DNA of 64,000 bases from Planctomycetaceae bacterium (GTDB taxonomy: Bacteria > Planctomycetota > Planctomycetia > Pirellulales > Pirellulaceae): the NCBI GenBank assembly GCA_002709225.1, contig PAQH01000126.1, forward strand, positions 1 to 64,000, read 5' to 3'. Position 1 is the first letter of the stretch, and each line of letters opens with the position of its first letter. The translations under genes were made by a program, and so were the position numbers. Shown in pieces: positions 21,841 to 26,732 of the stretch. The notes below the pieces were generated by a model. The model saw only the letters and a program-made list of their open reading frames with translations, was not told the DNA's origin and made no database searches.

Positions 21841-24800
21841 CTAACGTTGTAATTCCCGCGCGGGAGGTTGCGAACCGGGGGGGGGGAACCGTGACGCAGG
21901 ACTGAGCGCAGCCCCCGGGGGAGGCGTTTGTCGACTAGTGGGCAGCGCGCTATTGAGTTCGACCGACTGAACACCTTCCAGATTAAGTTGATTCGTTCGT
22001 GGCTGATAGACAATCCGTTCCAATCGAGTCGTTTGAGGTTCTGCTCCAATGCGCTGTTGTCGCGTGAGTACGGCGAACGTGCGGCCGGTTCCTTCCAGAA
22101 TCAATAAATCTTTGTGATGGGCGTACTTCAACGCGTGTCCAGTGGCGGTAAAAAAACCGCTTTGTTCTTGTCCTTCAACCCGGATATTGCCACGTGCCAG
22201 CAGCTCAACCCCCGGAGATTGTTTGTCCGGTAGGTCCGCGACAGTAAGTTGATCGCTGTGCAGTACACCTCCCGGACGCGCGCGGCTGACGATTTCTTCC
22301 GCGGACACCTGGTCAACCCACTGCGCGACCGGTCCGTACACCGCTTGAACTTGTTGTTTGAAGGTGACTTCCCGATAGTCGAGATTGCCGGTCATTTCCT
22401 GAGCAAAACGGACATCCAGATAGAACAGTTCAGCAGCCGATGACGTTTCGATTGAGCCGTTACCGGCCGATTGTAGAGGATCACGATTGTAGCGAACCGA
22501 ACTGAGCCAGCCTGGTCCGTCGGCTCTGAGTTTTCCGGTCGCACCTTGAAGACTCAAGTTGCTGACTTCCAGACGTTCTTGCGATTGTTGTAGTGCGGCC
22601 TTGTTGAAAGTGCGATTTTCCAGAACGCTAGGCCCCACAAAGAAGAGTTGCTGGTATTGAATACTGCGTTGCCGATCGGGTTTGGAGAAATCGAGTTTTT
22701 CAGCAAGGGTGACCCGCACGTCTTCACCGAGTGCCACAAAGTCACTGAAGTCACCGCTGGGTTGGATTTGTTTCCCCTGGATGATTACCTGTCCTCGTGC
22801 CGCGGCCGTCTGCCCGTCAAATGCCAGATGTCCTGTCCATTGCAGTTGGAGGGGGCCGTTGGTTTTGTTCTTGGTTTTGGGTTGTGCCGTGATGCGTCCC
22901 GCGCCATTAACCCACAGTTGATTGGTTCCCTGGTGCATTTGGATCGTCTGTCCGGTAAGGGCCACACCTTCAGCGGCAATATGCGCCGGCCGCCTCTCAG
23001 CGGCAGCGGCGGCTCCATCACCAGTGAAAACGGGTGAACCGACCAGCATAAGTTTCGGGTTGTTTGAGCCACCAGCGGTCATTTCGAGATGATTGCCCGC
23101 GAGAGTGATCGATCCGCCTGGGTTCACTGGATTGCGGATTTCGACAAGTTCGACATTCCCGTCGAGGCTGGCATTTTCCAGGGTAGTCCGCTGTTGGTCA
23201 CGTACAAAGTGAAGCTGTGCAGTGCGGCTAGTCAGCCGAAAGATCCGTTGGAATGACGGCGGTGTAGCCGCGTTCCCGCCACGCGGTACGGTGGGTGTGA
23301 ACGAAGATGACGCCGCTGTTCTGGGCTGATTGGGGGGCGTTGTGGGGGTGAGATCATCCAACCAGACTTCGAGACGTTCGACGTTTGCCATGATCTGTTG
23401 GCTATCGAGTTGGACACTGCCGGTGGCGAGCATTTTTTCGAGTTGAATTCGCCCCTCATTGGGCTGTGTTTTTGCTGCGGGTGGGGGGGCGGTTTGTCGG
23501 AGCCACGCATGGATTTGATTGGCAGCCAAGGAGCCTTCTCCTGCCGATTGTAGCTGTGCGCCGCCAGACAGCGAAAGCACGTGTGCATGGCCTTGCGGTT
23601 CCAACCTTAATTCTTCCGTCCAATCGGCCTGCAGCGTTACTTGTCCCTTGTCGTGTTGTCGAAACTGTCCACCGCCACCAGCCCACAAGCGTCCCAACCG
23701 GTGGGGTTGCTTACCGAGTTCGTATTCGATCTGAGATGCGGTGACGGTGTGGTTGTCATGTTTAAGTTCGACGAACCGAGAATCCTCGAGTTGGAGCGTA
23801 CGACGTGCCAGGTCGTATGCCAGCTTTTCGCAGCGTACGCGGGTCGCTGTGGTGTTCGCTTCCAGGGTCACTGGTGTTCCCACCGCGATGATTTTTTTGA
23901 CCATTCCGCGGCGAGGCATGCGTTCTTGCTTTTCGCCTCGAGCACCAACAGAAGATTCAAGAAAGGCTTTCAGTTTCTCGCAATACAAGCGGTCGGTGAC
24001 GCTGGAATCGCCGAAATGAGTGACTTGGACGTTCTCTTCCAGTGAGGCGGTTTGTTGCAGGAAGTCAAACAGCAGCGGACCTTGGCAGCGCAATTGCAGC
24101 TGCGTTGCCTGCGCTGTAGAAGATGGATTTTGTGGAACGCTGGGCGCCAGCAGCGGTTGTTTACCAGTCCTTGGTATTTCGATTTGCAGCTGATCGAGAT
24201 GGATGAGTTCCAGTGTTCGTAATTTTCCGAGCGCAAGGTGCCCCTCCACGTCGTCGGTATTATCGAAATCCAGTAAGAGCTCTCGGCCCGTGCCGGCATT
24301 GGGGCCAAAGCGGAATTCGACTGCGGCGGTAGTCCAAATCCGATCGAGTGTGATTCGTAGATTCCGGGTGCGTACGAACAGGTCATTGTTGCCGCCGGGC
24401 TCGGAAGGTGGGCTCCAGAGTGTGACTTCTCCGCGTAGCCGACCGCCGAGCAGCTTGCCTGCTTTGGTGGACATCAGCGAGAGCGCACGTTGAAACTGCA
24501 ACTCGGCACCTTCGGGGGCTTGCATTACGACCCATCGTGCGTTGGTCGCGGTCTGTCCCTCGGCGGCCGGGGATTCCACTTCCACGATCATGGTCACCGG
24601 GTGCAAGTTCAAGCGACCGTTTGATCCGGTGCGGTAATCTTGAAAGAGGAGGCTGCCGTGCGGTGTGCGGAGCATCTTGGGCTTGTCGCGTTCCCAGGCG
24701 CCTGCAGGAAAAAAACGAGCGTAGTTATTGTGCGTGAGCTTACTCGCATTCCCCGACGGTAGTAGATCGAAAGGTTTGGCGACCGGCTCAAAGGCCGGCT

Positions 24801-24876
24801 CAAACACTGGAACGAGGGCCACCTGGTAGAGTCCAAACGCAGCCAAAGTGCATCCCAGCGCGACCACAAAACGCAT
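21841..24876 (-). CDS. Giant LptC/LptA (OstA-like) LPS-transport-type protein
   Basis: Single N-terminal TM (MRFVVALGCTLAAFGLYQVALVPVF), then long repetitive beta-type sequence; located directly downstream of kdsD-kdsC as lptC/lptA are in Proteobacteria. Confidence 0.55.
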   Translation of the reverse strand: MRFVVALGCTLAAFGLYQVALVPVFEPAFEPVAKPFDLLPSGNASKLTHNNYARFFPAGAWERDKPKMLRTPHGSLLFQDYRTGSNGRLNLHPVTMIVEVESPAAEGQTATNARWVVMQAPEGAELQFQRALSLMSTKAGKLLGGRLRGEVTLWSPPSEPGGNNDLFVRTRNLRITLDRIWTTAAVEFRFGPNAGTGRELLLDFDNTDDVEGHLALGKLRTLELIHLDQLQIEIPRTGKQPLLAPSVPQNPSSTAQATQLQLRCQGPLLFDFLQQTASLEENVQVTHFGDSSVTDRLYCEKLKAFLESSVGARGEKQERMPRRGMVKKIIAVGTPVTLEANTTATRVRCEKLAYDLARRTLQLEDSRFVELKHDNHTVTASQIEYELGKQPHRLGRLWAGGGGQFRQHDKGQVTLQADWTEELRLEPQGHAHVLSLSGGAQLQSAGEGSLAANQIHAWLRQTAPPPAAKTQPNEGRIQLEKMLATGSVQLDSQQIMANVERLEVWLDDLTPTTPPNQPRTAASSSFTPTVPRGGNAATPPSFQRIFRLTSRTAQLHFVRDQQRTTLENASLDGNVELVEIRNPVNPGGSITLAGNHLEMTAGGSNNPKLMLVGSPVFTGDGAAAAAERRPAHIAAEGVALTGQTIQMHQGTNQLWVNGAGRITAQPKTKNKTNGPLQLQWTGHLAFDGQTAAARGQVIIQGKQIQPSGDFSDFVALGEDVRVTLAEKLDFSKPDRQRSIQYQQLFFVGPSVLENRTFNKAALQQSQERLEVSNLSLQGATGKLRADGPGWLSSVRYNRDPLQSAGNGSIETSSAAELFYLDVRFAQEMTGNLDYREVTFKQQVQAVYGPVAQWVDQVSAEEIVSRARPGGVLHSDQLTVADLPDKQSPGVELLARGNIRVEGQEQSGFFTATGHALKYAHHKDLLILEGTGRTFAVLTRQQRIGAEPQTTRLERIVYQPRTNQLNLEGVQSVELNSALPTSRQTPPPGAALSPASRFPPPGSQPPARELQR

Positions 24877-25092
24877 TGTTGATGCCAGTGGGCCGTTCGT
24901 GATGTTTTGGGGGAACAGGGTGAACAGGGGCATCCAGGGGGCTTCCTGCCGGGGCTGGCGACATCCTGAGCCGCTTTCTCAGGATGTTGGCGTTGAGTGG
25001 AATTGGAGTTGCGGTAGTTGGATCTATCGTGCGGTGTCTACACAGAGCTCGCTTTCCACGAGAAAGCTCACGGAGTGACCTGAACCAACGCG

Positions 25093-25623
25093 TTAGCTTT
25101 CTTCGATTCCGTATTTAGTGAGAAGTTCTCCCCAGCGCTGTTTGGCCTTCAAGGCGACTTCGATGACTTCGCGGACAGCACCTTGTCCGCCAGGTGTTGT
25201 TGTCACGTAGTCCGCCGCTGCGCGGACCTCCGGGGCGGCATCTGCCACGGCGACCCCCCAGCCGACGTATTGCATGACCGGTAAATCAGGGAGGTCGTCC
25301 CCGATATAACAGACCTGTTCGGCCGCTAAATCCAATTCTTCGAACAGGTCGCAGGCGGCCGGCAGCTTGTCTTCGAAGCCTTGCCGCACCGAATCGATTC
25401 CTAATTCGTTGGCCCGTAGTTTGACAATGTGGGAAACGCGACCGGTCAACAGCCCGAAACGAAAACCGGCTTGCGTCCAGAGTTTGATGCCGAGTCCGTC
25501 GCGGGTATGAAAACGTTTCGTTTCGATTCCCTGGTTGTCGTAGATGATGCCGCCGTCAGTTAACACTCCATCGACATCAGAGAGAATGAAAACGACCTCC
25601 TGGGCAGTAGCGGGTGTGCTCAT
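25093..25623 (-). CDS. kdsC: KDO-8-phosphate phosphatase (HAD, KdsC-like)
   Basis: ILSDVDGVLTDGGIIYD; FHTRDGLGIKLW; YIGDDLPDLPVM. Confidence 0.9.
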   Translation of the reverse strand: MSTPATAQEVVFILSDVDGVLTDGGIIYDNQGIETKRFHTRDGLGIKLWTQAGFRFGLLTGRVSHIVKLRANELGIDSVRQGFEDKLPAACDLFEELDLAAEQVCYIGDDLPDLPVMQYVGWGVAVADAAPEVRAAADYVTTTPGGQGAVREVIEVALKAKQRWGELLTKYGIEES

Positions 25624-26732
25624 TGGTTTCCCTTTGGAGTCACGACGGCAGGAGGAAACTGAAGGGTACCGGGACGTGTGTCGGGATTTGAGTTTCCTGG
25701 GGGATCCTCCGAGGGTGGTCCGGGTGCCGGCATGGCGCCGACGACGTCGGTAATGTCGAGCATGCCGACCGGTTGGTTGTTGCCGTTGACGACGGGGAGC
25801 TCGCTGATCTTGTGTTCGACGAGGACAGTGACTGCATCCCTTACGGAGCTGTTGAAGGCAACGGTTCGTGGCGCGGGGGTCATGACGTGCAGAATCGGTT
25901 GGTCGAGTATCTGGTCTTGTCCCGATTCAAGCAGTCTCGCCAGGTCGCTGTCTGTGAACAGGCCCGTCAACGTGCCCGCGGGGCCGGTCAGCATAATGGC
26001 ACCGGTACGACGTCCGGGCCGGCTGGTCTGGACGATGATCTCGCGCACCGTTTGTTTTTCGTCGGCGACTCGGCAGGCATCGAGCTTTCGCATCAGTTCT
26101 TCAACCTGTGCTAGTCTGCGCCCTAAACTCCCGGCGGGATGGCGGCGGGCAAAGTCCTCAGCTGAAAAATCGCGGTTGCGGCTGACTACCAGCGCGAGCG
26201 CATCTCCCATACTGAGCATGGCCGTTGTACTTGTTGTCGGGGCCAGACCAAGACGGCACGCTTCATGCAGATGTCCCAAGTCGAGTACCAAGTTCGCAGC
26301 TTTCCCAAGCTGGCTTTCAGGGTTTCCGGTCATCGCGATCAAGCAGATGTCGAGCCTGCGCAGTGTCGGTAACAGCCGTAGCACTTCTTCTGTTTCTCCA
26401 CTGAACGAGAGCGCCAGCACGAGGTCGCCGCGGGTAATCTTGCCGAGGTCGCCATGGACGGCCTCGGCAGGATGTAGGAAGTGGCTAGGGGTGCCAGTCG
26501 ACGCCAGGGTGGCACAAATTTTCTGGGCGATCAGACCGGCTTTACCCATGCCTAGCAGGATGACATTTCCGCGACATGCCGATATCTGGTCCGTGGCGTC
26601 CAGGAAATCGTCGGAAAGCTGGTCGGCCAAATGGACCACTGCCTGCCCCTCGGTGCGCAGGATCTCCGAGGCATAACGCAGTTGTTCGAACCGGTTGAAG
26701 CCTGATTTGAGCGCAGGAGCTTCCATACTCAT
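25620..26732 (-). CDS. kdsD: Arabinose-5-phosphate isomerase (SIS + CBS domains, KdsD-like)
   Basis: VILLGMGKAGLIAQKICATLASTGTPSHFLHPAEAVHGDLG; CBS pair; 4-bp overlap with kdsC; start at internal Met. Confidence 0.9.
   Translation of the reverse strand: MSMEAPALKSGFNRFEQLRYASEILRTEGQAVVHLADQLSDDFLDATDQISACRGNVILLGMGKAGLIAQKICATLASTGTPSHFLHPAEAVHGDLGKITRGDLVLALSFSGETEEVLRLLPTLRRLDICLIAMTGNPESQLGKAANLVLDLGHLHEACRLGLAPTTSTTAMLSMGDALALVVSRNRDFSAEDFARRHPAGSLGRRLAQVEELMRKLDACRVADEKQTVREIIVQTSRPGRRTGAIMLTGPAGTLTGLFTDSDLARLLESGQDQILDQPILHVMTPAPRTVAFNSSVRDAVTVLVEHKISELPVVNGNNQPVGMLDITDVVGAMPAPGPPSEDPPGNSNPDTRPGTLQFPPAVVTPKGNQ

Follow-up and report, generated by a model that had tools for sequence, protein, structure and literature searches.

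A giant protein encoded behind kdsD-kdsC in a planctomycete is probably a natural one-chain fusion of LptC and LptA modules

The subject of this analysis is a very large protein encoded directly behind the genes kdsD and kdsC on a 64,000-nucleotide stretch of DNA from a Planctomycetaceae bacterium (contig PAQH01000126.1; hereafter the window, within which the coordinates of open reading frames (ORFs) are counted). In Escherichia coli the order at this locus is kdsD-kdsC-lptC-lptA-lptB. In the window, kdsD and kdsC overlap by 4 base pairs (bp), both products score above their NCBIfam subfamily cut-offs, and the giant ORF begins 159 bp past the kdsC stop, in the slot held by lptC-lptA in E. coli. 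The gene that follows, on the same strand, encodes a FAD-dependent oxidoreductase, and lptB lies elsewhere in the genome. An initial annotation had described this arrangement, including the overlap and the absence of lptB behind the giant gene, and the coordinates bear it out; its estimate of about 1010 amino acids (aa) falls slightly short of the actual 1030 aa. The two peptides it quoted as repetitive β-type sequence are both present in the protein, which it read as having one N-terminal transmembrane segment, an LptC-like start and an OstA/LptA-like remainder.

A single N-terminal hydrophobic segment was indeed found at residues 23-41 (Kyte-Doolittle value 2.01), while all later 19-residue stretches reach at most 0.97, and in 50 of 50 relatives the most hydrophobic such stretch falls within the N-terminal 130 aa. 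AlphaFold2, run on the giant protein with 50 homologues, predicts a transmembrane helix at residues 15-44 followed by about 57 β-strands across residues 86-986, with a mean predicted local distance difference test (pLDDT) score of 79 and 451 residues at 90 or above. When the full model was compared with the PDB using Foldseek, LptD entries came out on top (E-values down to 7e-9), followed by LptA, LptH and LptC, and the match to LptA 2r19_A has a template modelling (TM) score of 0.75, normalized to LptA, over 161 columns. Residues 1-265, folded separately, again gave the helix at 15-44 (pLDDT 83.7), and their top five PDB matches are all LptC, with TM-scores of 0.69-0.70 to 3my2 and 4b54, outranking LptH and LptA; the E-values of these matches are only about 0.01, at a probability of 1.00. 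The fold prediction thus contains the OstA-like folds that the initial annotation anticipated.

Profile-profile comparisons of the modules (Table 1) point in the same direction. M1 matches the C-terminal module with a probability of 96 over 115 columns and M4 with 95; M2 matches M1 with 73 and M4 with 89; and M3 matches M1 with 80 and the C-terminal module with 78. By these comparisons, at least three to five putative OstA repeats that resemble one another follow an LptC-like part, with the N-terminal module set apart from them. Using hhalign, the C-terminal segment was matched to E. coli LptA with a probability of 76, with the KdsC and LptB controls staying below 1. Since the single-sequence hhalign comparison of the N-terminal profile with E. 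coli LptC was uninformative, the LptC assignment draws on structure and on hidden Markov model (HMM) matches in relatives. Neither phmmer against PDB sequences nor a profile search from a 30-member alignment returned a useful match. Among 30 relatives, PF03968 matches in 20 (best E-value 1.4e-8) and TIGR03002 in 19 (best 3e-9), and these matches cluster at two sites, one at about residues 280-412, the other in the C-terminal module. The M1 region exceeds the PF03968 cut-off in relatives, the C-terminal module does likewise in several, and in one relative (G017) residues 138-236 of the N-terminal module exceed the PF06835 cut-off (23.2 versus 21 bits).

Table 1. Genes of the locus and modules of the giant protein (residues refer to the 1030-aa product, coordinates to the window)
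Feature	Residues	Coordinates	Strand	Evidence
kdsD (kpsF/gutQ family), arabinose-5-phosphate isomerase		25620..26732	minus	ATG at 26732; TIGR00393 266.3 bits, cut-off 203.7
kdsC, Kdo-8-phosphate phosphatase		25093..25623	minus	TIGR01670 154.7 bits, cut-off 106.95
Giant LptC-(LptA)n-like protein, 1030 aa		21841..24933	minus	N-terminal transmembrane segment and all-β periplasmic part
Transmembrane helix, putative inner-membrane anchor as in LptC	15-44	24802..24891	minus	AlphaFold helix; hydrophobicity in relatives
LptC-like jellyroll, about 11 strands	86-253	24175..24678	minus	Foldseek; PF06835 in relative G017
OstA/LptA-like module M1	277-412	23698..24105	minus	PF03968/TIGR03002 at 343-409; profile match to C-terminal module
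OstA-like stretch M2 (boundary chosen by us)	415-527	23353..23691	minus	Model strands; profile matches
OstA-like stretch M3 (boundary chosen by us)	564-683	22885..23244	minus	Model strands; profile matches
OstA/LptA-like module M4	692-815	22489..22860	minus	Profile matches
C-terminal OstA/LptA-like module	836-986	21976..22428	minus	hhalign to E. coli LptA; PF03968 in several relatives
Proline-rich tail, pLDDT mostly below 50	987-1030	21844..21975	minus	AlphaFold model

The first OstA module also carries two cysteines, C283 and C318 (about positions 24087 and 23982), which lie 35 residues apart. Of 50 homologues, 43 have the first, 44 the second and 37 both. A disulfide between them that staples neighbouring jellyroll turns is possible. 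Cysteines at columns 113, 893 and 765 are common among the relatives and absent from the window protein.

The giant ORF is not a chance reading frame, because 59 of 60 relatives encode the protein, almost always at a length of about 950-1250 aa. Of 119 genomes sampled from the class, 117 encode it. A search of genome contigs with a profile from a 10-member subset of the alignment gave 60 named loci that carry it, and these all belong to Planctomycetota or to unassigned 'bacterium' metagenome assemblies. In the 50-member alignment the length ranges from 948 to 1243 aa with a median of 1043, and stop-to-stop counting gives open frames of up to about 1570 aa in certain families of the class. The gene order is conserved as well: kdsC immediately precedes the giant gene in 49 of the 56 named loci with enough upstream sequence, kdsD is nearby in 44 of 46 testable loci, and at the 45 loci where 1.5 kilobases or more of downstream sequence was available, no LptB above 40% identity was found there. 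At two Gemmatales loci (L120 and L121) the giant gene directly follows kdsD, and no kdsC was detected in between.

A profile search of other Planctomycetota uncovered weak but significant relatives of the giant protein, and these provide the clearest proof of a fusion. Two proteins of 655 and 664 aa (L141:3720-5687 and L145:3640-5634) are encoded directly after kdsD-kdsC, start with a transmembrane-like segment, and match PF06835 with E-values of 7e-17 and 6e-19, respectively. Their LptC part is followed by two or three stretches matching PF03968 (1.3e-23 and 5e-20); for both LptC and several LptA domains, these same-locus proteins lie well over the Pfam cut-offs. A 501-aa homologue has an LptC match and a weak LptA match, the LptC HMM cut-off is passed by the fusions at L141, L145 and L146, and M4 of the giant protein matches the 655- and 664-aa fusions with a profile-profile probability of 91. 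It follows that the kdsD-kdsC locus carries a one-chain LptC-LptA(n) protein in more than one class and that the length of this protein varies between classes; judging from the sequences, the number of OstA modules seems to differ too. In some classes the proteins have about 500-660 aa and between one and three LptA modules, in the class studied here about 950-1250 aa (with frames to about 1570). OstA proteins of about 500-1050 aa from other classes were seen at L141, L145, L146:1498-3003, L147:1388-3955 and L148:2463-5618, and the genes at L141, L145 and L148 sit right behind kdsC.

The gross shape of the giant protein, an N-terminal transmembrane segment and a long β-groove, is shared by phospholipid bridges of the AsmA/TamB/YhdP type, which have nothing to do with lipopolysaccharide (LPS) transport. 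The PDB contains few AsmA-like structures, which makes a structure search less likely to return them. Even so, the sequence and fold matches go to LptA, LptC and LptD, the linkage to kdsD-kdsC is conserved, and same-locus homologues exceed the Pfam cut-offs for both LptC and LptA, all of which makes a protein of that kind exceedingly improbable here. The comparison with Pfam gave no AsmA, TamB or DUF3971 match at E-values up to 10, and for lack of such a match this identity was rejected. We consider it very probable, from sequence and predicted structure, that the giant protein is instead a natural one-chain LptC-(LptA)n fusion that would bridge LPS to LptD. The window protein is neither LptC nor LptA proper, as it stays below the curated cut-offs of both and has another architecture; it is a fusion of both kinds of module, and most likely it would work like LptC plus LptA.

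The remaining components of the Lpt machine, which the initial annotation suggested seeking elsewhere in the genome, were found there. LptB (321.9 bits, cut-off 240) is encoded on another contig, upstream of dnaG and downstream of a signal-peptidase-type gene, two LptF/LptG proteins (PF03739) come from two more contigs, and the LptD, which is 1106 aa long, scores above its cut-off (L044:1582-4902, contig C118). In this LptD the PF04453 match starts only at residue 616, compared with a total length of 784 aa for E. coli LptD. The N-terminal, periplasmic part of this LptD thus seems far longer than its E. coli counterpart, and the outer-membrane end of the bridge may be lengthened too.

Separate canonical LptC and LptA proteins were also sought in the same genome and in the 60 relatives. 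No separate PF06835 LptC was detected in the genome, and in the relatives the sole match lies inside the giant protein; a separate PF03968 LptA was found in neither set, with HMMs that are insensitive in this lineage. The only PF03968 match outside the giant protein among the relatives, in G030, was rejected as an LptA, since it belongs to a BlaR1/M56-secretin-type protein. This 965-aa protein (L149:3250-6147) joins a BlaR1-type M56 peptidase to a secretin-like part and a short C-terminal LptD_N-like match, an unusual combination that has no relation to the Lpt bridge.

Several results weigh against the fusion reading. The window protein itself scores 18.7 bits with PF03968 (cut-off 20.4) and 27.9 bits with TIGR03002 for LptA (cut-off 71.7; E-value 1.7e-6), it reaches neither the PF06835 nor the TIGR04409 cut-off, and its TIGR04409 match (17.5 versus 38 bits) lies at residues 360-409 rather than at the N-terminus. 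The predicted TM-score (pTM) of the model, 0.60, leaves the placement of distant modules uncertain and the continuous groove a prediction only. PF03968 detects the giant protein itself in just 8 of 60 genomes, the A3 profile fails to detect LptD, and the genome is 83% complete; because of this insensitivity and incompleteness a small, diverged LptA could be missed, and its absence is weak evidence. Together with the uncertain module placement, this leaves some room for an arrangement in which the giant protein replaces LptC and part of the bridge, and another LptA, separate and highly diverged, either connects it to LptD or is stacked on it. We regard this as unlikely: the giant protein already has an LptA-like C-terminal module and several repeats, and no second OstA protein was found in the genome with the family profile, nor any adjoining lptB or lptD. 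The proposal that the giant protein replaces both LptC and the oligomeric LptA is supported by the analysis, its role as an LPS bridge being a putative one.

For the fusion we envisage the following mechanism. The N-terminal helix would sit in the inner membrane, and the first jellyroll, acting like LptC, would receive LPS from the LptB2FG extractor. The periplasm would then be crossed by an unbroken hydrophobic groove made up of three to five OstA modules, of which the last would dock on the N-terminal jellyroll of LptD and pass the lipid on. Here LPS binding, the contacts with LptF/G and LptD, the continuity of the groove and the dispensability of a second periplasmic protein are what we infer. 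In E. coli the N-terminus of LptA meets LptC and its C-terminus meets LptD (PMC10094684); by analogy, the order of anchor, LptC, LptA repeats and free C-terminus would run in precisely the direction required for a path from LptB2FG to LptD. LptA and LptH have 16 strands (PMC7347655), and the model has about 11 strands in the LptC part and about 46 after it, so that the chain would be worth about one LptC plus three LptA. At 4.8 Å per strand and with two sheets, the groove would be very roughly 14 nm long, a figure that comes from arithmetic and not from a measurement.

The nature of the cargo deserves separate consideration. The envelope lipids of planctomycetes are little characterized, and the window shows only genes for precursors of 3-deoxy-D-manno-oct-2-ulosonic acid (Kdo), so that the fusion might carry some other Kdo-bearing molecule or a glycolipid in place of classical LPS. 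This seems quite improbable, given that Planctopirus limnophila requires nearly all of its lpxABCDKL genes for lipid A (PMC10632474) and that every planctomycete genome examined has LptD and BamA (PMC3422733).

Compared with known systems, the giant protein resembles LptC (YrbK; PF06835, TIGR04409) in its single N-terminal transmembrane anchor followed by a jellyroll and in the position of its gene after kdsC. LptC, however, stops after a single jellyroll, at about 190 aa, whereas the giant protein adds about 750 residues of OstA modules. With LptA/LptH (YhbN; PF03968, TIGR03002) it shares the OstA jellyroll and, in the case of E. coli lptA, the gene neighbourhood; but LptA is a separate, soluble protein of the periplasm that oligomerizes by itself, is about 185 aa long and has a cleaved signal peptide, while the repeats of the giant protein are covalently joined, membrane-anchored and fixed in number by the gene. 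The N-terminal domain of LptD is likewise a jellyroll, in line with the LptD entries that head the structural matches of the full model, yet the giant protein has neither an outer-membrane barrel nor a PF04453 match, and the true LptD is encoded elsewhere. Similar in design is the long transenvelope MlaD of diderm Firmicutes (PMC10665443), where one protein spans the envelope and makes shuttle parts unnecessary; the analogy is one of design only, as MlaD combines an MCE domain with an outer-membrane barrel and carries phospholipids. No description of a natural LptC-LptA fusion was found in the open-access literature, subscription papers and domain-architecture databases being outside the search.

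On balance, we favour the view that in Planctomycetota a single polypeptide alone links LptB2FG to LptD, that the number of modules and thereby the span of the periplasm are set by the gene, and that the length has diverged between classes. The number of LptA copies per bridge has been stated to be unknown or debated (PMC7347655, PMC10094684). A lineage with a one-chain bridge of countable modules would offer a natural bridge of fixed length for questions of stoichiometry, the continuous-flow model and periplasm width. Only LptD and BamA had been traceable by BLAST in the planctomycete envelope (PMC3422733), and the giant protein would fill this gap in planctomycete envelope biology.

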